Origin: a virus
Reading direction: 5' to 3' (one strand)
DNA: 20,977 nucleotides
IMG/VR virus record: IMGVR_UViG_3300029448_000539
Location: 1-20,977 of that record
This document shows, piece after piece, positions 1 to 19,984 of the stretch (the stretch's first letter is position 1; each line of letters opens with the position of its first letter). The notes beneath the pieces are model-generated. The model worked only from the letters and a program-made list of their open reading frames with translations. It made no database searches and had not been told where the DNA came from. A program made the position numbers and the translations under genes.

Positions 1-3000
1 AAAATGTTTACCCCACAACAGTTTTACGATGGCCCGCCATTAAAGTCTGGCAAAGAAGCGTTTGACGTTTTAACTAAAGAGCTGCTGAAACGAAGAAGCG
101 AAGGGGTAGAAAACTTCACGATTGAAGTTCCGTTTGGCAATCAAAAGATTACTGCAACAGACATAAACGGTTTTAGGAGATGGCACACTGATGGCTACGT
201 CGCCAGCGAAGCCAGTGTTAGAGCGATGACCCTAAAGCCGGCCAAGAAGGCAGTGGCAAAAAAGAAGGTAGCGCCACAATCGGCCAAAGAGATTAATTTC
301 TGGCGCAGCTCTAAACCAGATACTTGGGTTTCCGAAGATGGTGATTGGAAAATTTTAAGAACCAAGTGGTCGCCAAAAACTAAACGGGAGAAGGATGCCA
401 GTAATTGGCCGAGAACTGGTTACAAAATTATGTATGTTGGTGGAGATCTAAATGTAAACACTGTCAGAACTCTAAGCGAGGCAAGTAAAAATCTCAGAGA
501 GTCCTATATTGGAAGATTGTTCAAGACGTTTGTGGACGCTAAAGCAGGCATCCAGGAATGGAGCGATCTTTACGATAAGACGTTAGAAGAAGGTCGGCAA
601 ATAAATGCCGGCAAAGGGAAAAAAGCAGCGACCAAAAAGAAGGCAGCGACCAAAGGCAAACAAGAAGATCGGATTGAAGATCCAGAAGCAGATACGCGGA
701 TCGACGGCTCGAGAACAGACCAGATTTTCAACAAAGTTTCTTTTATGCGTGGCCCAAGCGTATTCCGAGATTTGTTCACATTTCTTGGGCTCGACCCCGC
801 GCTTGCAGAAAACCGTCCTATAGCAAACCAATTCAATCTGGCCATTAAAGGTATGCGGGAGATGTTTGGCTTTGCATGGGTCGAGACGGATGACAGGGCA
901 AGCCCTAAAAAAGTTACAGATCATGCCCTCAATCTTTTCAAGGCTCTTACGCAAATGTCTGCTGCCTTGGAATTGCCGGCAAAAGCAATCGGTCTTGAGG
1001 ACACGCTAGGACTACTTTTCGAGGGACGGGGTAAACGCTATTTAGGCCGTTACGATCCAGACGGCGCAACGCAGAAACGAGCGCCAGAAAATATCGAAAA
1101 AGACCCTCCGGGCGGGCCTGCTATTGAGCTTCCGCAAATGTCTAACTCATTTGCCCATGAATGGTTCCACGCTCTTGATTTTTATCTTTTGGGGAAATTT
1201 GGGACGCAACCCGCTCATGGCCTGTCAGCGTTAATTAGAGATCTCGGCGACACTAACGCTTTTTCAAGTGCAGCACCGGATTCGGTTAAACAAGCGTTCG
1301 CTCGGGTCGTTAAAGCAATGTTTTTCGATCAAGCTGAACTCGCTGCCAAGATAAAAGAAGTTGAATCAAAACTCGAAAGGACAAAACCAGACTCTGCCAA
1401 TCGAGCCAGACTAACAAAACAACTACGGAACCTTAGAAGCGGGGCATCGACTCAGGGCAAATCCAAGAAAGGCGATGTGCGCTCGAAATACTACCGATCC
1501 AGTCAAGCCTTCTCGCCAAACGCTTACTGGCTGTATCCAACAGAAATGTTCGCGAGAGCAGGCGAGGCTTACGTCGCTAGGAAAATACGGCAGCAGGCAC
1601 AAATTGCGGGCGATACGGTTGCTGATGGATTGAACAAGGGTGATGAGGCGTACTTAGATCAACTTGACCAACGTCTGAGAATGACGTTTCCAAAAGAAGC
1701 TGACAGGATCGCTATTTTTGCTGCGCTCGATAATCTGTTTGAAACGATCCGGCACGACACGCTTATTGGCCAATCCGGCGACGGCCCCCCCCAGTTGGCT
1801 GGCGATGCCGATATGCTCAATACCCGTCTGTGGTATCAGGATGCGCCAAAACGATCCCGCCAAGGTATTCGCCAGTTTTTCTTGCGCGAAGTGAACTTTT
1901 TTAGAGATTCACTAAAAAAGTATAAAAGAGAGAAAGCAGAAAGGCCGATGAGTGAAGGCGGGAATGCAGCATCACGAATCGCCAGAAAAATCTGGGACGC
2001 CGGAGGTCAGATCGTCAAAAGCGAACGCGGACTATTCTTGACCTGGGAAAAGAGATACCCCGGTAACCGAGCGATAACAGAAATTATCAAACGGTTATAT
2101 GAGCTGCCAGGAACAGGCAGAGAGCAGTTCGAGGGAGGGCCGTTTCATCTTGCAAATAGGAAACTGAACAACCAATACAGTTCTCGATTTGGAAATATCG
2201 TCAACAAGTTCAATCTTATAAATCTTTCAAAAGAAGAAAGCCTGATGTTGCGTCGGGTCTTAACCAGCCAGATCGCACAATCAGGCAACAAGGAGATGAT
2301 TGACTGGTACAACGAGGATGCCGAAGTTGATCCAGACACCACTGGAATACCGAGAAGATTTATAGAGGCGGGCAAGGAAATCAGAGCATTCCTCGACCAA
2401 GTTTGGTACGACGTCAATAACAGCGGGATTCCTCTGAACTACGCCAAGTCAGGTCACCTCACTCGCAGTTGGGATGCGCCAATCATTCTGCAAGACGTTG
2501 AGGGCTTTATTAAGGACGCCTTCAAAACGTACAAACTAAATTTTGAGAAGTACGTCCATCGACGAGACGATAAAAATATAGAAAGCACTTTGCTGCAAAT
2601 TGCAGACGATGTTCGTGTTCAAGACGAACTGGATAGCATGGAACAACTTGATTCAGCGATGGAGTTAGTAACAAAAATAGGAAACATTCGCGCCAAGATT
2701 GAGATTAAAAATCAGATTCTGCGTGAGCAGATTCTTGAAGAAAAAGCCAAGGAAGATATTGAGGCTGATCGAGAAGTAAGAGAACTCGAGCAAAAGATCG
2801 AGAAAAATTTAGACAAACTCTACCCAATGATTCGGGATGCCTTGTCTCAGGTGGAGGCGACTTCTCTCGCAGAGGCGATTGTAAATGGCCCAAGCCACGG
2901 CCTCGAGCGGGCCGTTGGGGGTCGTCATGGATACCCCAAATGGAAAGGGAAACGAACGCTACCGCCCGAAGCCGACACGATCATGGAGAAGTGGTATCAG

Positions 3001-4575
3001 AATGATCCATTGGAAGTGATCTATACCTATATGACAAGTGCAGCGTTAGCGATTACCTACCGTCAGCGGTTCGGAAAAGGCAATGCAAGAGACAAGCTCA
3101 TAAAGGCGTTACCGCCAGAGATTCGGAAACAAGCATCGGAGATTCTGGATTACGATACTGGACGTTTGCATCATAGCGCGTCTCAACTGTCTCCCAATCT
3201 ACGGAATGCGCTTGGGTACGCTCACACAATAGGTCTGATGGCCAGACTACCAAGGGCCGTCTTATCAAGTGTTCCAGAGCATACCGTTGTCGGAGTCATC
3301 ACCGGGAAAATGATGGACTCTGCAAAAAGCTGGGGGTCGCTGCTTAGAAGCATAGTAAGCCGTGATAACGCCCATGAGATGTTGATGATCGGGCAGCTCA
3401 TTGGAATTATCGGAGATCCGCAGGTCGAGAACGTCCACATGGAGAGGTTGGGCGGGACGTTTGCCGATGATCCAAAGTTTGGAAGAATGTTGCAAAGGTT
3501 CTTCCAGGCAACTCAACTGACTCAACTGACTCATAAGCAATGGCAGTCTCTAGTACCCGTTATGCAGTTGACGCTTCACGATCTTGCCTTGCAGTACGAG
3601 GGCAAGGTGAAAAATGCGCCAATGGCCAAAGATGCGATTGAGGACACGCTGCGGGACGTTGGAGTGCCGACGAGAGACATACCAGCGTTCACTAAATGGA
3701 TCTTGGAACACGACGGAAAGCCGTCAATGGAGGCGATTGCAGAGACAGATTTGGGCAAGGTCTACCAGATGGCCTTGTTTCAGCAGACCAGACTGGTCGT
3801 GCAAGAGCCCACAAAAGGAGATCGACCGTATTGGCAGCGTTACACCTACGGCCAGTTTGCGCTCGGGATTACGTCGTTCTCTTATAAGTTCCAGCGCAAC
3901 GTGACGATACGCATGATTAACCAGATCAAAGCGGAATATCGTCGTGCGTCTGTTCAAGAAACAGCAGGCGGTCGTTTCAAGGGACGAGCGAAAGCGACCG
4001 CGAAAGCCGGCAGGTTTGCAAGCCGAAGACTGGTGACGGCCGTCTCGATGTACTACCTGTCTGTTCTATTAACGACGATTATAAGAGAGGCAATTTTTGG
4101 ACAAGACCGATGGGATGAAGAAGAAAAAGAAGCCGATGGTTTCCCCATCAAGTATTTGATGGAACTGGCATGGAACCGAACAGGATTCATTGGCGCATTT
4201 GATCCTTGGTACAACATGATCCGGCAGATGCGTTATCGAAGATCGATCACTACATACACTGGCGGTGGCCCGACGGGAACCTATTGGACTGAGGGTATAG
4301 AGAGGGCCGGTTACAGTCTTATGCGTAATTCTGAAAAAACCAACACCGCTGAACGGGCTAGGGTCATTGCATCCTATGAGCTGCTGGTTCTTCCTCTGCT
4401 TCTGGTAGGTCTAACGTCAATTGCGGTCGCGCCAGTTACCGCACTCCTGATGGGCGTTGGCGCTATGTTTGCGACGTCAGGAACGGTCAAAGGGTTTCTG
4501 GCAGACAGCATTGCCGGAGAAGATGGCAAGTCGGACTCTAAAGCTGGGCGAGGACAGTCCAGATACAATTTTTAG
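1..4575 (+). CDS. Large polyvalent phage protein (LPD-type), probably 5'-truncated by the window
   Basis: At least 1523 residues are visible. The first ATG is at base 4, but the reading frame is already open at base 1 with no in-frame stop, so the real start may lie upstream. Two Lys/Ala-rich linkers occur near residues 78-90 and 204-222. An HEWFHALD segment at residues 385-392 has the zinc-protease-like HExxH arrangement and resembles the LPD1 type of large polyvalent protein domain. The middle (about 840-960) is rich in charged, probably coiled-coil helices. Near the C-terminus there is one hydrophobic segment at about 1343-1365 and a long one at about 1457-1495. Proteins of this build are usually late phage proteins carried in the virion and delivered into the cell, which is inferred here. 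The downstream gene starts three bases after the stop. Function unproven; a protease or peptidoglycan role is only a possibility. Confidence 0.8.
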   Translation, partial: KMFTPQQFYDGPPLKSGKEAFDVLTKELLKRRSEGVENFTIEVPFGNQKITATDINGFRRWHTDGYVASEASVRAMTLKPAKKAVAKKKVAPQSAKEINFWRSSKPDTWVSEDGDWKILRTKWSPKTKREKDASNWPRTGYKIMYVGGDLNVNTVRTLSEASKNLRESYIGRLFKTFVDAKAGIQEWSDLYDKTLEEGRQINAGKGKKAATKKKAATKGKQEDRIEDPEADTRIDGSRTDQIFNKVSFMRGPSVFRDLFTFLGLDPALAENRPIANQFNLAIKGMREMFGFAWVETDDRASPKKVTDHALNLFKALTQMSAALELPAKAIGLEDTLGLLFEGRGKRYLGRYDPDGATQKRAPENIEKDPPGGPAIELPQMSNSFAHEWFHALDFYLLGKFGTQPAHGLSALIRDLGDTNAFSSAAPDSVKQAFARVVKAMFFDQAELAAKIKEVESKLERTKPDSANRARLTKQLRNLRSGASTQGKSKKGDVRSKYYRSSQAFSPNAYWLYPTEMFARAGEAYVARKIRQQAQIAGDTVADGLNKGDEAYLDQLDQRLRMTFPKEADRIAIFAALDNLFETIRHDTLIGQSGDGPPQLAGDADMLNTRLWYQDAPKRSRQGIRQFFLREVNFFRDSLKKYKREKAERPMSEGGNAASRIARKIWDAGGQIVKSERGLFLTWEKRYPGNRAITEIIKRLYELPGTGREQFEGGPFHLANRKLNNQYSSRFGNIVNKFNLINLSKEESLMLRRVLTSQIAQSGNKEMIDWYNEDAEVDPDTTGIPRRFIEAGKEIRAFLDQVWYDVNNSGIPLNYAKSGHLTRSWDAPIILQDVEGFIKDAFKTYKLNFEKYVHRRDDKNIESTLLQIADDVRVQDELDSMEQLDSAMELVTKIGNIRAKIEIKNQILREQILEEKAKEDIEADREVRELEQKIEKNLDKLYPMIRDALSQVEATSLAEAIVNGPSHGLERAVGGRHGYPKWKGKRTLPPEADTIMEKWYQNDPLEVIYTYMTSAALAITYRQRFGKGNARDKLIKALPPEIRKQASEILDYDTGRLHHSASQLSPNLRNALGYAHTIGLMARLPRAVLSSVPEHTVVGVITGKMMDSAKSWGSLLRSIVSRDNAHEMLMIGQLIGIIGDPQVENVHMERLGGTFADDPKFGRMLQRFFQATQLTQLTHKQWQSLVPVMQLTLHDLALQYEGKVKNAPMAKDAIEDTLRDVGVPTRDIPAFTKWILEHDGKPSMEAIAETDLGKVYQMALFQQTRLVVQEPTKGDRPYWQRYTYGQFALGITSFSYKFQRNVTIRMINQIKAEYRRASVQETAGGRFKGRAKATAKAGRFASRRLVTAVSMYYLSVLLTTIIREAIFGQDRWDEEEKEADGFPIKYLMELAWNRTGFIGAFDPWYNMIRQMRYRRSITTYTGGGPTGTYWTEGIERAGYSLMRNSEKTNTAERARVIASYELLVLPLLLVGLTSIAVAPVTALLMGVGAMFATSGTVKGFLADSIAGEDGKSDSKAGRGQSRYNF

Positions 4576-4818: not shown

Positions 4819-5264
4819 TTAGCGAGAAGGATACTGGGGTCATTGGAGAGCTGGCCTTCTCTGCGGAGGCCATGCGTCACGGCTACAAGGTGGCCCAGCC
4901 ACTTGGTGACAACGAGCAATTCGATCTGCTGCTCACTGCTGGCGGGGATCGCCTCTACCGAGTCCAGGTCAAGTCATCTGCGAATCCGCTGAAAGATGTC
5001 TACACCTATGTGATTCGTCGCGGGAAAAACAAGACAAAATATTCAGAGGTCGATGTCTTTGCGCTTTACATGATCCCCGAGCGAATCTTTTTCATCATTC
5101 CAAGGGTCGAGGCTGCGGATCGAACGACCATAAAACTGAGGGCGCTGCCGAGGCAAAGTCAGTGGGCTATATATAGAGAGAACTGGGGAATCTTCGAGAG
5201 TGATCTCGATGGATTTGAGAATAAGCGACAAAATAAGCGACAAAATGCCAGAACTGACAACTGA
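4806..5264 (+). CDS. PD-(D/E)XK-type endonuclease (PDDEXK_5-like)
   Basis: A 152-residue protein starting with GTG and overlapping the gene before it. The visible motifs are an N-terminal GELAF (E15), then QFDLLL (D40), then RVQVK (Q54, K56). This spacing, with Gln in place of the usual acidic residue before Lys, matches the small PD-(D/E)XK fold that includes I-Ssp6803I-like nucleases and Holliday-junction-type enzymes. The expected role is DNA cleavage, but the substrate cannot be told. The extreme C-terminus encodes a repeated NKRQ, because a 12-base DNA direct repeat that may be an integrase arm site is embedded in the gene's end. It is the last rightward gene before attP. The nuclease fold is fairly sure; activity is not. 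Confidence 0.75.
   Translation: MAQLISEKDTGVIGELAFSAEAMRHGYKVAQPLGDNEQFDLLLTAGGDRLYRVQVKSSANPLKDVYTYVIRRGKNKTKYSEVDVFALYMIPERIFFIIPRVEAADRTTIKLRALPRQSQWAIYRENWGIFESDLDGFENKRQNKRQNARTDN
5221..5246 (+). repeat. Tandem 12-bp repeat, candidate integrase arm-type sites (left arm)
   Basis: ATAAGCGACAAA occurs twice in tandem (5221-5232 and 5233-5244), each followed by AT. An inverted copy with 11 of 12 matches lies on the other side of the tRNA fragment at 5474-5485. Repeats flanking an attachment core in opposite orientation are typical of arm sites bound by the N-terminal domain of tyrosine integrases; that role is inferred. Confidence 0.55.
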
Positions 5265-5473: not shown

Positions 5474-5485
5474 TTTGTCGCTTAA
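5474..5485 (-). repeat. Inverted copy of the arm-type repeat (right arm)
   Basis: On the minus strand this reads TTAAGCGACAAA, 11 of 12 matching the tandem repeat at 5221-5244. It covers the integrase stop codon (5482-5484). Together the repeats bracket the attP core at roughly 70-90 and 115 bases. Confidence 0.55.
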
Positions 5486-6603
5486 CCGACAAGATCAGTG
5501 ACAAAATCGCTGTCCCTTTTCGGTTCTGACAAACGCGCATTGACGGCATCCATTAGATGCTCTGGAGCCAAATGCAGGTAGTTGTCGATGATGGTTTGAA
5601 CGTGATCTCCGACTGTCGCAGCGACCTCAGTCAATGGCACACCGGCCATCACCTTTTGCGTGATGAACGAGTGCCTAAGTGTATGCTTCGTGACATCTTC
5701 ATAACCCCATCTATCGCAGAAGCTCTGGAACGCCGAGCGAAGCGAAGCCTTACTGTCCATGTACCAGTCAGACCGGCGCTCTGCGTATGCCTGCTCGAGG
5801 ATCGGCATTAGAGCGTTTGAGATCGGCACCTTCGGATTGCGCTTTTTTGTCTTAGCGCGACCCTTGGGTTGAAAGTCGATCATCCTCTGCTCAAAGTTTA
5901 TCTGCGACCACGGCAGTTGTTCAATGACCCGACCCCGGGCTCCGGTTTCAAACGCCATCCAAAGAAAACGCTCGATGCGAGGCAGCCGACCCAGCTTTCT
6001 CAACTCCCGCTGCTTGCGGGCATCCAACAGCATCTTGTCCATCTCGTCCTCATAGATCACGCGATCTTTTGCCGGTGGCGATGCGGGCTTCATCACGTTG
6101 AAAGGTGGCACCAGCGACGGCGACATCCTTATCGAAGTGGGCTCCGCATTCTTCACCATCCAGTTACAGGCAGCAGAAAAACATCCCAGCTCTTTTCGGA
6201 TCGTGCCTGGCCCCGCTTTCTTACCGACCTTGCCGGCCCGACGAGATGCCGAATATTTTTTTATGCAGGCGTTGTCGATCTCGTTGACACGCACCCCTCT
6301 AAAGAACTCAAGCCCGTGTTTAATGATGACGTCCACTCGATTACGATCAAAAACGAATGGCGTACCATCTTCACGTTCGCCATAAACCCGCTGATCTTGG
6401 TACACCTTCAGGATTTCGGTCATCAGGGGCATCGACTCAAGAGTCTCGATCTGATTCTTTAGGCTCAACCAGCGCCCAAACGCGATCTCAGCCTCTTTCG
6501 CATCCGTCTCTCCCAAAGACTCACGCTTACCCCCCGAGTGGTGGACATACCAGATGCCGTTCCCGTGCTGCTTGAGCCACGGTTGGCTTTGACGTTTTGC
6601 CAT
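5482..6603 (-). CDS. int: Tyrosine-recombinase integrase
   Basis: A 373-residue site-specific recombinase, a normal length for phage integrases. An N-terminal AP2-like arm-binding region (about 1-50) is followed by a SAM-like core-binding domain (about 60-160) and the catalytic domain (about 180-350). Catalytic positions are visible: Arg in TGAR (R223), HTLRH (H307, R310), GDH (H334) and the nucleophile in NYLH (Y342). A basic beta-hairpin region near 246-258 would hold the catalytic Lys. The ATG has a GGAG site nine bases upstream on the minus strand. The gene reads toward the tRNA-Pro attP core, and its 5' end lies inside the end of the excisionase-like gene. It should insert the phage at the host tRNA-Pro(CGG) gene. 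Confidence 0.95.
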   Translation of the reverse strand: MAKRQSQPWLKQHGNGIWYVHHSGGKRESLGETDAKEAEIAFGRWLSLKNQIETLESMPLMTEILKVYQDQRVYGEREDGTPFVFDRNRVDVIIKHGLEFFRGVRVNEIDNACIKKYSASRRAGKVGKKAGPGTIRKELGCFSAACNWMVKNAEPTSIRMSPSLVPPFNVMKPASPPAKDRVIYEDEMDKMLLDARKQRELRKLGRLPRIERFLWMAFETGARGRVIEQLPWSQINFEQRMIDFQPKGRAKTKKRNPKVPISNALMPILEQAYAERRSDWYMDSKASLRSAFQSFCDRWGYEDVTKHTLRHSFITQKVMAGVPLTEVAATVGDHVQTIIDNYLHLAPEHLMDAVNARLSEPKRDSDFVTDLVG

Positions 6604-10503: not shown

Positions 10504-10531
10504 AGTCCATGGGAATCCTCCTCCCTGTGGC

Positions 10532-10552
10532 CACGCCGTCCTAACCGGCGTG
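10532..10552 (+). repeat. Perfect hairpin upstream of the strong terminator
   Basis: CACGCCG (10532-10538) and CGGCGTG (10546-10552) form a 7-base stem with a TCCTAAC loop, seven bases ahead of the terminator. It may be an anti-terminator/pausing element or the 5' part of a small structured RNA; no U-run follows it. Confidence 0.5.
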
Positions 10553-10559
10553 TAATTGT

Positions 10560-10969: not shown

Positions 10970-11454
10970 TCGGGCGGTTGTGGTCGATGTACGACACATA
11001 CCCCGAAGACGCTGAAACGCCGTATGAGATTGCTTCTGGCAAAGAGCGGGCTGCGTGGATCGCCGAATTCATGGAGTGGAAAACCGAAGCACAAGTCGGG
11101 CCAGAAAAAGAGCTTACGGCGCTAATCAATCTTTATGTCGATAACGGCGTCCGTATTTTTATCGACCTTGATTGGCCGGACAAGATCGTTCTGACCGCTG
11201 CTTACATTGCTGCGTTCCCGAAAGAACACTCACAAGATCTGCTCACCGATCTGGGCGACGTAGACCTGCTGACCGAGATCTCCAAAACGATGGAGAACAT
11301 CGCGATGGAGCAGATGTTCTCGCAGCCGAACGAAAAGACCGCTGTGAAATTCATGCACCTCATCACCGCTGCTTTTATGAATGCCTGCGCTGAGAACTTA
11401 CAAGAAGACTTTGACGAAATTATCAAAAAGAATGAGCGCCAATTTGGCGAGTGA
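10966..11454 (+). CDS. Hypothetical protein upstream of the PrimPol gene
   Basis: A 162-residue acidic, mainly helical protein with no recognised motif (a repeating pattern in LTDLGDVDLLTEISKTMEN and a helix-rich C-terminus). Its ATG overlaps the previous stop by four bases and its end overlaps the PrimPol start by 23 bases, which indicates tight translational coupling. It may be a small accessory or loader for the helicase, by position only. A start at Met8 is possible. Confidence 0.7.
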   Translation: MIGRLWSMYDTYPEDAETPYEIASGKERAAWIAEFMEWKTEAQVGPEKELTALINLYVDNGVRIFIDLDWPDKIVLTAAYIAAFPKEHSQDLLTDLGDVDLLTEISKTMENIAMEQMFSQPNEKTAVKFMHLITAAFMNACAENLQEDFDEIIKKNERQFGE

Positions 11455-13588
11455 GCAGCAGAAGTGGGCTGAACTGTATATGGGGTTGGGCCTTAACCCG
11501 ATCCCTGTCCACTATGTTAAAGAAGACGGCTCTTGCTCTTGCCGTCAGGGCGCCAAGTGTCCCTCTCCAGGCAAGCACCCAGCCCTCGATTCATGGCTGC
11601 GCTATCAACGTGTTCGCGCAAGCGAAGACGATACCGAATATTGGTTTGATGGCCCGTTCAAAAAGCACAACGTCGGGATCGTGACGGGCAAGATCAGCGG
11701 TGGCCTCGTCGTGATCGACGTTGATGCCGGTGAAGGCAAAGACGGTGACGATACTCTGCAAACGATTCAACTCGAGAATGAGGACTTCCCCGATACGATG
11801 ATGGCGTACACCGGAGGCGGTGGCCGTCACTACTTCTTCTACGCACCCAAGGGGATGCGGATCAAGACCGGCACCAACATCCTCGGCCCAGGCGTTGACG
11901 TTAGAGGCGAGGGCGGTTTCGTGGTGGCTGCGCCTTCGCAGCATAAGAGCGGTCGGCCTTACACGATGGAAGTCGCCAACCCGATTGCCAATCTACCGGA
12001 CTGGCTGCTCGACCGGCTCGAGGAACAGGACGATGCCCCGACGGCGCCCAAGAGTAACGGGGCAGCGCCGGAGCGCGATCGCGACCTATTTAATCGCGTG
12101 ACCGACGGGCGCGATGCGTACATGGTGGACACGGTACTCGCGATCATTAGAGACATCGTAACCGCCACGCATGGCATTCCCTCTGCGGACGCGGTATTTG
12201 ATGAAGCGTGGCCACAATACGAGAGAAAGGTGGCAGCGCGGGGCGCGTCGCTCGAACAGGACGGGCGTGGCGAGTCAGCCATGCGCCAGAAGATCGCCTA
12301 CTGGCTGAAGCGGGCGAACCTTGGAACGCTGCGGGTAATTGCGGGCATCCCTTTGGACGGGATTGCGCCGAACATTGCAGCGGAGCCCGAAACGCCGGAC
12401 GCGGAGCCAGAGGTAAAGGGGCTGAACTTCCAAATCACCGACTGGTCTACCAATCGATATTTGGGGGAGCCTCCCGCGAGGCAGTGGCTGATTGACAAAG
12501 TGCTGCCGGCCGGCGTGTCAGGGATCTTCGCCAGTCTGGGTGGCGTGGGCAAGTCGTTCGCGCTGCTCGACCTGGCTTTCAAGGTCACACGCTTTGATTC
12601 CGAATCATGGACAAGCCCCCGCGCTCTCGGCGGGGAGCTTGCCCGCTTTGGGTCAGCCGTGGTCTTGGCTGCGGAAGACTCAAGGGATGAACTGCATCGG
12701 CGTGTCCGCGCACTCGGTGATGACGATGCACTGAAGCGGGCTACGGGCAGGCTATTTGTTCCACCTGTCGTTGACCTCGGTGGGGCGCCGACCTTGATGA
12801 CCATGCAGTTTGGCGATGCCACGATGACACCGGCATGGTACGACTTCGTGGATCAGTGCAAGGCGATCCAAGACCTTCAACTGATCGTCATTGACCCGAT
12901 CCAGCCCTTCGTCTCTGCCGATCTCAACTCCGACTCGACCTCGGCTGCGCGGTTGATGGGATCGCTCTCGAGCCTTGCTGCCGAGACAGGGGCGACTGTG
13001 ATCGGGTCGCACCACATGAGGAAGTCAGGCTCGTTCGCGATCAAGACTGTTTGGGAGGCCCGCGAAAGTGTGCGTGGCGTCGCGTCCTTACTGGATCAGG
13101 CACGTTGGGCATATTGCCTCTGGTATGGATCAGAGAACGACCTCGAAGTCATCGAGCAGCAACTGCTTGATGAAGGTGTGATCGAGGAAGGGTTAAACCG
13201 TGCGGATTTCGTGCAGGGAGCAGTGGTCAAGTGCAACAGCCCTGTTGATCTGCAAATCAGGGATTACGTCCGCAGCCAGGACACGGGCCTGCTGATGGAT
13301 CGAACTGGCGACTTCGACATGGCGCGTGAGGTCAGCAACCGTATCAGCGCAGCAAACCGAGACGCGATCTTCGAGGATGTTCTGGCAAGGGAGAAAGCGG
13401 GCAAGGCGTTCCCTCTGGGCGCCCAGTCACGCGACTCACTGGCGAAGCACATCGTCAAGGAATATGGATACAAGATGAAAGTGGCCCGTGAGCATATCGA
13501 TAAGTGGCTCGAGGATGCGTATCTCGGGCGTGACCGAGACAACCATCGCAAGTGCTGGGTGGTGACATTAAAACGATTTGGAGATTGA
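11432..13588 (+). CDS. Bifunctional primase-polymerase fused to RepA-like helicase
   Basis: A 718-residue replication protein from the ATG at 11432. An N-terminal CSC...C...GKHP cluster (C35, C37, C43, H49) precedes the Prim-Pol catalytic set: DxD in VVIDVD (D96, D98), GGGGRHYFF (H133) and GVDVRGEGG (D156). A linker with a helical C-terminal primase region follows at about 215-300. The RecA-fold helicase domain has Walker A GGVGKS (370-375), Walker B LIVIDP (D488) and a GSHH sensor (526-529), as in RepA-type hexameric helicases. No separate DNA polymerase gene is visible, so this protein probably primes, and perhaps copies, DNA at the iteron origin. Activity of each half is inferred from motifs. 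Confidence 0.92.
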   Translation: MSANLASEQQKWAELYMGLGLNPIPVHYVKEDGSCSCRQGAKCPSPGKHPALDSWLRYQRVRASEDDTEYWFDGPFKKHNVGIVTGKISGGLVVIDVDAGEGKDGDDTLQTIQLENEDFPDTMMAYTGGGGRHYFFYAPKGMRIKTGTNILGPGVDVRGEGGFVVAAPSQHKSGRPYTMEVANPIANLPDWLLDRLEEQDDAPTAPKSNGAAPERDRDLFNRVTDGRDAYMVDTVLAIIRDIVTATHGIPSADAVFDEAWPQYERKVAARGASLEQDGRGESAMRQKIAYWLKRANLGTLRVIAGIPLDGIAPNIAAEPETPDAEPEVKGLNFQITDWSTNRYLGEPPARQWLIDKVLPAGVSGIFASLGGVGKSFALLDLAFKVTRFDSESWTSPRALGGELARFGSAVVLAAEDSRDELHRRVRALGDDDALKRATGRLFVPPVVDLGGAPTLMTMQFGDATMTPAWYDFVDQCKAIQDLQLIVIDPIQPFVSADLNSDSTSAARLMGSLSSLAAETGATVIGSHHMRKSGSFAIKTVWEARESVRGVASLLDQARWAYCLWYGSENDLEVIEQQLLDEGVIEEGLNRADFVQGAVVKCNSPVDLQIRDYVRSQDTGLLMDRTGDFDMAREVSNRISAANRDAIFEDVLAREKAGKAFPLGAQSRDSLAKHIVKEYGYKMKVAREHIDKWLEDAYLGRDRDNHRKCWVVTLKRFGD

Positions 13589-16087: not shown

Positions 16088-16098
16088 GACTACTCCTT

Positions 16099-16114
16099 GC
16101 CGTCCAATGACGGC
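16099..16114 (-). promoter_or_regulatory. Hairpin abutting a ribosome site
   Basis: GCCGTC/GACGGC form a perfect 6-base stem with a 4-base loop, directly next to the AAGGAG (minus strand, 16093-16098) of the gene at 15719-16087. Such a stem could modulate ribosome access or protect the message. Confidence 0.5.
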
Positions 16115-16173
16115 GGTTGGTACAACGGTTGAATTGTTAAAGAACGGTCGCTGGGTTTTCCAACGACACCCCT

Positions 16174-16182
16174 ATTTTATCA
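16174..16182 (-). promoter_or_regulatory. Candidate extended -10 promoter (leftward)
   Basis: The minus strand reads TGATAAAAT: TG, one base and TAAAAT (16179-16174), an extended -10 element. The -35 zone overlaps the left arm of the TCGCGAAA palindrome. Confidence 0.45.
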
Positions 16183-16199
16183 AACGCACTTTTTGAAAA

Positions 16200-16233
16200 T
16201 CGCGAAAACGCCCTGTTTTAAAGGGTTTCGCGA
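16200..16233. repeat. Large palindrome TCGCGAAA...TTTCGCGA (operator or attenuator)
   Basis: Perfect 8-base arms (16200-16207, 16226-16233) enclose a second CCCT/AGGG pairing. It covers the -35 zone of the leftward promoter candidate, which suggests repressor binding. A terminator role is possible but the following tract is only moderately U-rich. Confidence 0.5.
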
Positions 16234-16301
16234 GAAAAAGTCTTTTGAAATCAATACCGAAAAAAATGCTTGACACGGGGTTTTAGGATTTTTGAAAAAA
16301 C

Positions 16302-16327
16302 AAAAAAAAGCCCCGCCGAAGCGGGGC
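16302..16327 (-). terminator. Intrinsic terminator of the main leftward operon
   Basis: GCCCCGC (16310-16316), loop CGAA and GCGGGGC (16321-16327), followed leftward by U8 (16309-16302). It ends the operon whose last gene stops at 16346. Confidence 0.85.
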
Positions 16328-16345
16328 ATGATTCATCTCGAACCT

Positions 16346-17292: not shown

Positions 17293-17294
17293 TA

Positions 17295-17366
17295 TTAGCC
17301 TCCAAAAAAATAGGCGACCGCCATGACGGCGATCACCACAATTGCAAAGATTAGTGACACAGGCAT
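17295..17366 (-). CDS. 23-residue membrane microprotein
   Basis: MPVSLIFAIVVIAVMAVAYF followed by FGG is almost entirely one membrane helix. Its ATG overlaps the stop of the DUF2786 gene (TGATG), so it is translated by coupling, and its own end is followed by the next gene's ribosome site. It is the smallest gene in the operon; function unknown. Confidence 0.5.
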   Translation of the reverse strand: MPVSLIFAIVVIAVMAVAYFFGG

Positions 17367-18267: not shown

Positions 18268-18281
18268 TTTTTTAACTCCTT

Positions 18282-18303
18282 GGGGCCGACTCGCGCCGAC
18301 CCC
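18282..18303 (-). promoter_or_regulatory. Leader hairpin abutting the ribosome site of the 56-residue gene
   Basis: GGGGUCG pairs with CGGCCCC (minus-strand RNA) over seven positions with one U·G pair. The 3' arm directly touches AAGGAG (18276-18281). Confidence 0.5.
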
Positions 18304-18315
18304 GCTATGGTTCGA

Positions 18316-18909
18316 TTAAGCTGCGCGCTCTGCCCTACTGATATCCTCGATTAAGCTGTAAAGATATAGAGACTCAGGATGAGAGGGATTAAGCTGCGCG
18401 AGTTCTCTCAGATCGCGCTTGTAGTCAAAACGCTTTTCTTGGGGAGTGTCGAAGCACGTGACCTCGCGAAGCTCTAGGCCGTCAGTATCCAGCAGCCCCC
18501 AACGGAACTGCTCACTGGCTTGATCTTGCAGCTCAAACAAAATCATCCGGCGGGCGTCTTGACAGATCGCCCACGCTGGAGATTGCTCCCAGTCTTGGCT
18601 GTCACAGGCTTGATATTCGTAACAGGCCACTAGCGCAGCCATGTCGGCTATTGAAAGACCCAGAGCCTCGAGGTCGATGTACTTGCTGCAGTCAGTTATG
18701 TATTGCTGTGGGGTTGTCAAAAAATTGCAGCGTGGTAAATCCTTGAATTTCCCCTCAGCGAAACTCGGGTCGCGGTGTGTCACTGATCTGATGACCTCAC
18801 GCGCTAAAACGGTGCCGTTCAGCTTCGGATTGTTGAATCCCTTGACGCTGCCGACAACGTAATTCGCGATTAATACGATATGCTCTGTGTGTGGCAAAAA
18901 TGCACTCAT
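18316..18909 (-). CDS. Hypothetical accessory protein with CYEYQACDSQDW motif
   Basis: A 197-residue protein from the ATG at 18909, which follows AGGAG by eight bases; a longer frame upstream lacks support. It is mostly helical, with MAALVACYEYQACDSQDWEQ and following SPAW, a pattern seen in uncharacterised plasmid and phage proteins. Cys-rich stretches may be structural. It is preceded by a two-state leader RNA shared with another operon gene. No function can be proposed with confidence. Confidence 0.65.
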   Translation of the reverse strand: MSAFLPHTEHIVLIANYVVGSVKGFNNPKLNGTVLAREVIRSVTHRDPSFAEGKFKDLPRCNFLTTPQQYITDCSKYIDLEALGLSIADMAALVACYEYQACDSQDWEQSPAWAICQDARRMILFELQDQASEQFRWGLLDTDGLELREVTCFDTPQEKRFDYKRDLRELAQLNPSHPESLYLYSLIEDISRAERAA

Positions 18910-18939
18910 AAATCTTCTCCTATTTTGTTTAAATGGTTT

Positions 18940-18995
18940 CCGAAGGTAAGACCTCCGGCAATGCGTCCTCGACCAGCAGGGCGCATTACCGGAAG
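18940..18995 (-). promoter_or_regulatory. Two-state leader RNA, copy A
   Basis: Read leftward, hairpin 1 pairs 18995-18982 with 18965-18952 over 14 positions (U·G pairs included). Hairpin 2 pairs 18958-18952 with 18946-18940 over seven positions around a 5-base loop. The two share 18952-18958, so they cannot form together. The ribosome site follows about 20 bases on. Hairpin 1 starts three bases after the stop codon of the preceding gene. Confidence 0.6.
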
Positions 18996-18997
18996 TC

Positions 18998-19279
18998 CTA
19001 GCTCCGGTCGAGTTCTGCCGTCTCGACAATCAACGCGGGGCCGAGGATCGGCGTCCCGAGCAGGGCGCTTGCCGTCAGGTTCAGTTCGACGTGGCCCCGA
19101 CGAATCAAACCCTCCTCATCGACCAGCGCCGTTTGGCTGCTGCTGTTCGGAATCGCAACCGGCTCGATGTAACCGCCGATCAAGGTCTGCCATGTTTTGA
19201 GTCGAGTCCCATGCTCATGCGGATCGAATGCCGTGATGGTTCCGTCAGCCTTGATTAAAGTGTTATTCGGAATTTGCAT
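18998..19279 (-). CDS. DUF3846-like protein
   Basis: A 93-residue protein from the ATG at 19279 with GGAGG before it, overlapping the upstream gene by 17 bases. The core GTITAFDP... and TLIGGYIEPVAIP..., followed by LVDEEG and LGTPILGPALIV, matches DUF3846, a small family in phages and plasmids. Function is unestablished. The leader RNA for the next gene begins straight after its stop. Confidence 0.75.
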   Translation of the reverse strand: MQIPNNTLIKADGTITAFDPHEHGTRLKTWQTLIGGYIEPVAIPNSSSQTALVDEEGLIRRGHVELNLTASALLGTPILGPALIVETAELDRS

Positions 19280-19592
19280 TGCTGGCCTCCTCGTCCGTGC
19301 TTTCCCAGCTCCGGAACGCCGGATTACCGGCCTCCTCGCCATTGAAACGAAACGAACTCAGGACAATTTCAAACTCCTCGTCCTCAGTGACTCCGATCCG
19401 CTCGTTCTGCTCAACGCAGATCGACCGCGCTTGCTCGATGGTCGAGCCCCAGACCCACGGCAGCGATCCCTCGCCACGGCCCGTTAGCGGGGCGTGTCCG
19501 GCCTTATCTCGAAACACCACGCTTGGCACAAACCCGCCATGCTTACTGGGGTCTTGGGTTTCTGGAATGGTGTAGCACCATGCTTTAGTCAT
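19263..19592 (-). CDS. Hypothetical conserved plasmid/phage protein
   Basis: A 109-residue protein from the ATG at 19592, with AGGAGG before it. The pattern YTIPETQDPSKHGGFVPSVV, then PLTGRGEGSLPWVWG and VEQNERIGVTEDEEFEIVLS resembles a recurring mobile-element family in which the GGFxPS, PWxWG and N-x-x-(I/L)G motifs are kept. Role unknown. It has the second copy of the two-state leader upstream. Confidence 0.65.
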   Translation of the reverse strand: MTKAWCYTIPETQDPSKHGGFVPSVVFRDKAGHAPLTGRGEGSLPWVWGSTIEQARSICVEQNERIGVTEDEEFEIVLSSFRFNGEEAGNPAFRSWESTDEEASNANSE

Positions 19593-19614
19593 AAGTGACC
19601 TCCTGTTTTTGAAG

Positions 19615-19667
19615 TTGCCGAGCGACGTAGCCCGGGCAATGCGTCCGCAGCGCGAACGCATTACCCG
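19615..19667 (-). promoter_or_regulatory. Two-state leader RNA, copy B
   Basis: Hairpin 1 pairs 19667-19656 with 19644-19633 (12 positions, one U·G). Hairpin 2 pairs 19639-19630 with 19623-19615 (nine pairs, one bulge, six-base loop), sharing 19633-19639 with hairpin 1. It matches copy A in GGTAATGCG, GCTG and GGACGCATTGCC. The stop of the preceding gene is five bases upstream, and AGGAGG follows. Confidence 0.6.
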
Positions 19668-19672
19668 ATCCC

Positions 19673-19984
19673 CTACCGAGTGCGGTAGGTTCTGGCGTCG
19701 GTTTGGCTAATGTGAAAAACGTATGCGGGGATCGGCACCGTCTTGCCGTCTTTGTTTTTGCGGTAGGTCGTGATCTGAACGCCTTTCTCACCCTTGCGAA
19801 CCTGACGCGCAAACTTGTTGCGCCAGACGTTATAAGTGAACGTATCTTCGCGGGGGTGCGCCTCGATCCCGCGATCCGCAAATTCGCGAACGATGGTCAG
19901 CTCATTGCCTATGCTGCTCCCGTTGATCGCTCGGTTATAGGTCTGGCCTGCCAGCTCTTCGCCTCGGGTTTGCTCAGTGTTCAT
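19673..19984 (-). CDS. ArdC N-terminal-like protein (possible antirestriction)
   Basis: A 103-residue protein from the ATG at 19984, overlapping the preceding stop (ATGA). The region YNVWRNKFARQVRKGEKGVQ at 51-70 followed by ITTYRKNKDG and PAYVFHISQTD matches the ArdC N-terminal fold, an ssDNA-binding domain of antirestriction proteins; KGEKG (64-68) is its signature. The metallopeptidase-like ArdC C-terminal part is missing, so it may be a standalone ssDNA-binding module. Antirestriction function is possible but untested. Confidence 0.7.
   Translation of the reverse strand: MNTEQTRGEELAGQTYNRAINGSSIGNELTIVREFADRGIEAHPREDTFTYNVWRNKFARQVRKGEKGVQITTYRKNKDGKTVPIPAYVFHISQTDARTYRTR

Follow-up and report, generated by a model that had tools for sequence, protein, structure and literature searches.

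The stretch of DNA analysed here (the window) comprises 20,977 bases of virus record G000, from an uncultivated virus, and this virus is a temperate phage. A leftward operon, in which neighbouring genes mostly overlap, extends from about 20.0 to 15.7 kb near the right end of the window. Judging by its position and gene content, it is probably an early operon. The following genes were considered, copies A and B being the two intergenic elements under study:

5482-6603: integrase gene
11381-13588: gene for a Prim-Pol/AAA protein
19673-19984, minus strand: ArdC N-terminal-like (ArdC-N) gene, 103 aa, upstream of copy B
19263-19592, minus strand: 109-aa gene, phrog_16631, downstream of copy B
18998-19279, minus strand: DUF3846 gene, 93 aa, upstream of copy A
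18316-18909, minus strand: orphan gene, 197 aa, downstream of copy A

The two proteins encoded downstream of A and B are mutually unrelated, and so are the two encoded upstream. No DNA similarity to the window was found among named phages. A search of 369 genomes of one class, carried out without a positive control, yielded no relatives of the 197-aa orphan protein or of the DUF2786 gene. The window also encodes a large phage protein of 1523 aa (4-4575, plus strand), the first 499 aa of which had one relative in a named phage, Microcystis phage Mae-Yong1326-1 (32% identity).

Copy B lies directly 3′ of the stop codon of the ArdC-N gene and copy A directly 3′ of the DUF3846 gene. Their features are:

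19632-19668, minus strand: hairpin 1 of copy B, 17-bp stem with a 3-nt loop
19657-19665 and 19635-19643, minus strand: core arms of copy B
19615-19639, minus strand: weak alternative hairpin 2 of copy B, overlapping the 3′ arm of hairpin 1
19599-19604, minus strand: Shine-Dalgarno sequence AGGAGG serving the 109-aa gene, whose start codon is at 19592
18947-19000, minus strand: hairpin 1 of copy A, 19-bp stem including the upstream TAG stop codon, plus three inner pairs
18982-18990 and 18957-18965, minus strand: core arms of copy A
18940-18958, minus strand: weak alternative hairpin 2 of copy A, overlapping the 3′ arm of hairpin 1
18917-18921, minus strand: Shine-Dalgarno sequence AGGAG serving the 197-aa orphan gene, whose start codon is at 18909

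A and B are stable, paralogous and strand-specific hairpins between unrelated genes of one leftward operon. Hairpin 1 folded with −36.5 kcal/mol in copy A and −29.4 kcal/mol in copy B. Pieces of 66 nt gave fold z-scores of −5.8 (A) and −3.3 (B), and shuffled sequences never folded as well; in a context of about 110 nt the z-scores were −6.4 and −5.7, and again no shuffle reached the observed energy. A TAG codon precedes each copy (18998-19000 for A, where it joins the stem, and 19673-19675 for B). The core arms, GGTAATGCG/CGCATTGCC, are identical between the copies and were present nowhere else in the whole record. Local alignment of A with B, which spanned the stop codon and both arms and continued into the spacer, scored 27, as compared with a maximum of 21.5 in 5000 shuffles. 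One pair of each hairpin is U·G on the leftward RNA and C·A on the opposite strand. Among the 23 stem pairs compared, 12 were invariant, including one U·G pair, two were changed on both sides (both from C-G to G-C), four were changed on one side and five were broken in one copy. Covariation was weak, as only two sequences could be compared, with the observed score being equalled in 120 of 500 shuffles, and the pairing was barely tested by it because the arms are identical. Neither a terminator T-run nor a promoter-like site, nor a −35/−10 pair, was found in A or B. Some 25-30 nt separate the end of each hairpin from the Shine-Dalgarno sequence, which is left uncovered.

These results were in agreement with the first-pass annotation as to the positions of the hairpins on the minus strand, their distance from the stop codons, the identity of the arms, the preference of pairing for the leftward RNA and the unrelatedness of the downstream genes. 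The two compensated pairs also supported its proposal of an RNA leader that was duplicated between cistrons and acts in the leftward transcript. Its statement that no named element has this sequence held as well: comparison with Rfam 15 gave no match at the gathering score, nor any at E<1.

The description of the element as a pair of copies was correct for A and B, but incomplete, since the remaining small gaps of the operon contain two further hairpins. Between 17293 and 19672, each of the four small gaps where genes do not overlap has a hairpin located between stop codon and Shine-Dalgarno sequence, with fold z-scores of −2.2 (17293-17365), −2.7 (18268-18315), −4.6 (18910-18997, copy A) and −3.9 (19593-19672, copy B). 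The additional features are:

18282-18303, minus strand: hairpin C, the third intercistronic hairpin, 9-bp stem with a GCGA tetraloop, directly before AAGGAG (−18.5 kcal/mol)
17313-17337, minus strand: hairpin D, the fourth intercistronic hairpin, terminator-like, 11-bp stem, TATTTTTTT, then GGAGG
16310-16327, minus strand: canonical intrinsic terminator GCCCCGCTTCGGCGGGGC TTTTTTTT, in the gap 16088-16345

The longer leftward gap at 16088-16345 looks like an operon boundary with its canonical terminator. The TATTTTTTT of hairpin D runs straight into the Shine-Dalgarno sequence GGAGG and a start codon, inside the operon. Only one of five rightward gaps stood out (10504-10557, z −3.3).

Neither IMG/VR nor Rfam nor the related phage loci yielded a close relative of A or B. 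The exact arm pattern occurred at 28 loci of viral contigs, mostly inside ORFs and at about the number expected by chance; among the matches listed for genome contigs, most likewise lay inside ORFs. Two other signals of homology were discarded: a perfect-palindrome variant of the arms, whose matches were again mostly genic, and the longer core of A/B, whose four matches were all coding. A few intercistronic hairpins with the same arms were present in unrelated phages (L019, L021/L024, L015, L025 and L004); they are suggestive, but had been selected by their arms. The order of stop codon, hairpin, Shine-Dalgarno sequence and start codon, in the orientation of A/B, was seen in L019 and L021/L024. 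The same layout occurred in L015 and L025 with the motif reversed, so that the U·G pair would be C·A in the sense RNA; if these two are relatives of A/B, the argument from strandedness is weakened. A covariance model built from both copies (R2), the search suggested by the first-pass annotation, was run on the related phage loci. It matched A, B, their complements and the arm-selected loci and yielded no independent homologue, and the covariation thus remains that of two copies.

The slot occupied by copy B was compared among relatives of the ArdC-N gene, which were found at 84 viral loci. The sequence after the ArdC-N stop codon was tallied for 51 distinct sequences, two of which were unclassed, and a post-stop hairpin was counted as strong when its fold within 48 nt reached −15 kcal/mol or lower. 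Where the next start codon lay at least 45 nt from the stop, 26 of 29 loci showed such a hairpin, as opposed to one of 20 where the genes abutted (next start less than 20 nt away), a control which is imperfect because folds are constrained less freely by coding sequence than by gaps. Where the ArdC-N gene is followed by a real gap, some stop-proximal hairpin of changing sequence occupies it nearly always. Several unrelated types occupied the slot, namely a family designated R1, an R1-like variant (L238, L256), a second leader type (L212, L223, L227, L235, L251, L263), the hairpin of L214 and copy B of the window. This second type, directly after the ArdC-N stop, consisted of GGG-loop-CCC at the stop followed by CTAGGGG-loop-CCCCTAG (CUAGGGG-CCCCUAG in the RNA). 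That position and structure are kept in this slot while the sequence changes supports a structural function, and it is mainly on position and structure that B was classed with the other slot hairpins. At a further locus (L034, about 4450-4510 and 4870-4960), a leader GAGAGCGATTAGTCGAACCGCC precedes the ArdC-N gene and recurs inverted after the following small gene as GGCGGTTCTATTAATCGCTCTC.

Same-strand pairs of hairpins sharing sequence in both arms were found in 18 of 172 strand-loci, as compared with three in first-order Markov controls, and most of them belonged to R1. In this family, hairpin 1 (CUGNNNNCCC...GGGNNNNUGG) begins about 4 nt after a stop codon and is adjoined by hairpin 2 (CCUAG...CUAGG), followed by T's, a Shine-Dalgarno sequence and a start codon. 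In a seed of 27 sequences, 98.1% of cells paired and 10 of 18 pairs showed compensatory changes; doubly changed cells numbered 58 (shuffles: 14). The covariation score reached 0.404, whereas shuffles gave 0.163 and slid controls no more than 0.098. The base of the element, an invariant CUG/UGG with conserved wobbles, was found in all 27 seed sequences. The covariance model returned 131 sense matches before the first antisense match (for example L195:2260-2316, L224:8436-8494, L262:5006-5060 and L271:8246-8302), from 62 of 86 sources and with up to four per locus; in whole records the copies were clustered in one region. An alignment of 150 matches contained 272 doubly changed cells as against 76 from shuffles; the seed figures are the cleaner ones, the larger alignment having been fitted to the model and containing 17 antisense echoes. 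The pairing of R1 is under strong selection.

An upstream ORF ended within 60 nt in all 96 listed R1 copies, at a median of 4 nt before the element, and a start codon followed within 70 nt in 94 of them. The downstream proteins fell into 26 groups by crude shared-word clustering. R1 matched no Rfam family, and its model gave one weak match in 300 genomes of one order. Neither A/B nor R1 was found described in the open-access literature, and R1 is apparently an undescribed, widely repeated two-hairpin RNA of other phages. When the R1 model was run on the window with filters off, no match was obtained at A or B. Homology is therefore not claimed, and a shared function is argued from position: A and B, too, start within about 10 nt of a stop codon and precede a start codon of the same operon. 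R1 and A/B are alike in using the slot after the ArdC-N stop, in being repeated within one operon, in being confined to the sense strand and in keeping their G·U pairs. They differ in sequence and in architecture, R1 consisting of a pair of adjacent hairpins, often with a T-run, and A/B of one long hairpin with identical arms.

Repeated intergenic hairpins of their own were also seen in three further phage lineages (L264:7584-8524, L193:7596-8211 and L241:3944-4695), with the sequences GGGGCCGGGCGG.., CTCAAGTGCC.. and ACTCGCGTCAAT.., respectively. Leaders of the form CTGTTAGCCC..GGGTTAACGGGCAATCACGCC were repeated before several genes in L031-L033 (for example L033:402-430, 916-943 and 3129-3157), with what look like compensatory changes in the outer helix (GCGTGA/TCACGC, GCGTAAT/ATTATGC).

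Our preferred reading, held at a little under an even chance, treats A and B as paralogous RNA hairpins that lie close to stop codons between cistrons of a leftward early operon and serve to insulate the polycistronic mRNA structurally. It is based on the stable minus-strand hairpin 1, the hairpins in all four small gaps, the two compensated pairs together with the kept U·G, the contrast between gapped and abutting ArdC-N loci, the presence of R1 in the same slot and the lack of a promoter in A/B. A ribosome terminating on the upstream gene would leave within a few nucleotides of the long helix. The helix could block 3′-to-5′ decay of the upstream cistron and prevent a ribosome that has just terminated from slipping onward into the next gene; the Shine-Dalgarno sequence of that gene, about 25-30 nt further on, would stay accessible. 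Cleavage of the hairpin by RNase III or another RNase specific for double strands may release separately stable messages, and the identical arms may also mark a recognition site for one RNA-binding factor. In our reading, one phage lineage has in A and B its own version of a hairpin type that lies near stop codons between genes and either insulates and stabilises the cistrons on both sides or is a target of processing or protein binding.

The first-pass annotation had regarded A and B as a two-state switch or attenuator, with the 3′ arm pairing in either hairpin 1 or hairpin 2. A second hairpin can indeed be drawn in both copies, at −11.5 kcal/mol in A and −11.3 kcal/mol in B. It is about 18-25 kcal/mol weaker than hairpin 1, appeared in none of 2000 Boltzmann-sampled structures per copy, while hairpin 1 was kept in all 4000, and pairs out of register between A and B when read from their alignment. 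Transcription would moreover complete hairpin 1 before hairpin 2, the two hairpins of R1 are adjacent and not exclusive, and neither copy shows alternative structures of comparable strength coupled to a terminator or a sequestered Shine-Dalgarno sequence. A riboswitch or attenuator is accordingly very unlikely, and A and B are probably structural spacers in the mRNA rather than a two-state switch. Only slightly less improbable is a role in setting expression along the operon, whether by terminating or pausing transcription between cistrons or as antitermination RNAs resembling HK022 put. Hairpin D of the same operon ends in TATTTTTTT, T's follow hairpin 2 of R1, and put RNAs likewise have two hairpins and two copies per phage; A and B, however, have no T-run, and put lies downstream of promoters and forms two coexisting stems, whereas the hairpins of A/B overlap. 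We consider it least probable, to the point of being barely credible, that a small mobile or host-derived repeat (REP-like) landed twice. Same-arm hairpins between genes of unrelated phages (L015, L019, L021/L024 and L025), two of them oppositely oriented to the genes, would fit such a repeat, but the record holds only two copies, both exactly between stop and start, matches to the longer core lie inside coding sequence and the arm pattern in viral contigs is about as frequent as chance predicts; the mobile-repeat explanation, which the first-pass annotation had named as a possible refutation, was thus not borne out.

A function at the DNA level, as operators or as promoter-associated inverted repeats like the extended start-associated sequences (ESAS) of cluster K mycobacteriophages, would account for inverted repeats with a variable spacer before a subset of starts, which are also found in Adephagia. 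It is nevertheless improbable, as A and B have no −35/−10 pair, the centres of the half-sites are 22 and 25 bp apart and so differ by a third of a turn, the conserved non-palindromic position forms U·G only in the sense RNA, and compensated pairs are present. The main rival, which we regard as unlikely though deserving of more weight than the others, is that A and B are binding sites of a phage or host RNA-binding protein which represses or activates translation, forming a small post-transcriptional regulon of one factor and two targets. The arms and a GGA on the inner 3′ side are identical in A and B while loops and flanks have diverged, and this identity beyond the needs of pairing suggests recognition; the invariant base and conserved wobbles of R1 point the same way. 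Recent duplication would, however, equally leave identical arms, the hairpins stop short of the Shine-Dalgarno sequence, and no candidate protein was identified.

Taken alone, the pair of A and B is a modest example of hairpins between cistrons. R1, to which it led, is the more valuable lead, being a structured, repeated and strongly covarying leader in 62 viral loci that is absent from Rfam. Together with the gap rule, R1 opens to experiment the question of how the many tiny genes of a phage operon are insulated or co-regulated at the RNA level. A wider and rather doubtful idea is that many phages with ArdC-N operons tag genes with a lineage-specific repeated stop-proximal hairpin, each type (R1, A/B and others) being read by a cognate factor. 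The phage would thereby gain a regulon working at the RNA level: genes unrelated to one another would be controlled jointly through their common intercistronic tag, and the tag could be duplicated and exchanged among genes.

Among known systems, the put RNA of HK022 is about 70 nt long, has two RNA polymerase-binding stem-loops that coexist and occurs in two copies per genome after early promoters (PMC9378689). A/B resemble it as a phage RNA in two copies per genome, and differ in that their stems overlap, lie between genes and include a second hairpin that is not populated. ESAS are inverted repeats with a variable spacer, several per genome, which precede unrelated non-structural genes with large upstream gaps (PMC3203893); the repeat sequence differs between phage lineages (PMC3203893, PMC11373665), and putative SigA promoters within them were described in 2024 (PMC11373665). 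The ESAS of Adephagia, when re-read, were TTGACA-containing palindromes with TGTTGACATGCATACAG-like arms. The likeness to A/B is one of layout only, including the preference for genes after large gaps. A/B begin at the upstream stop codon, and no sigma-70-like promoter was found in either copy; the 13-bp start-associated sequence (SAS) GGGATAGGAGCCC was absent from the starts of their genes, where the sequence is ATAGGAGAAGATTT and ACAGGAGGTCACTT. The RNase III sites of T7 are long hairpins between cistrons of the early operon which act on mRNA ends and stability, and they have sequence features of their own. A long intercistronic double helix, in what is probably an early operon, is likewise found in A/B (19 and 17 bp), although the stem of B is short for a classical RNase III site. 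By layout, the T7 sites appear to be the closest working analogue of A and B.
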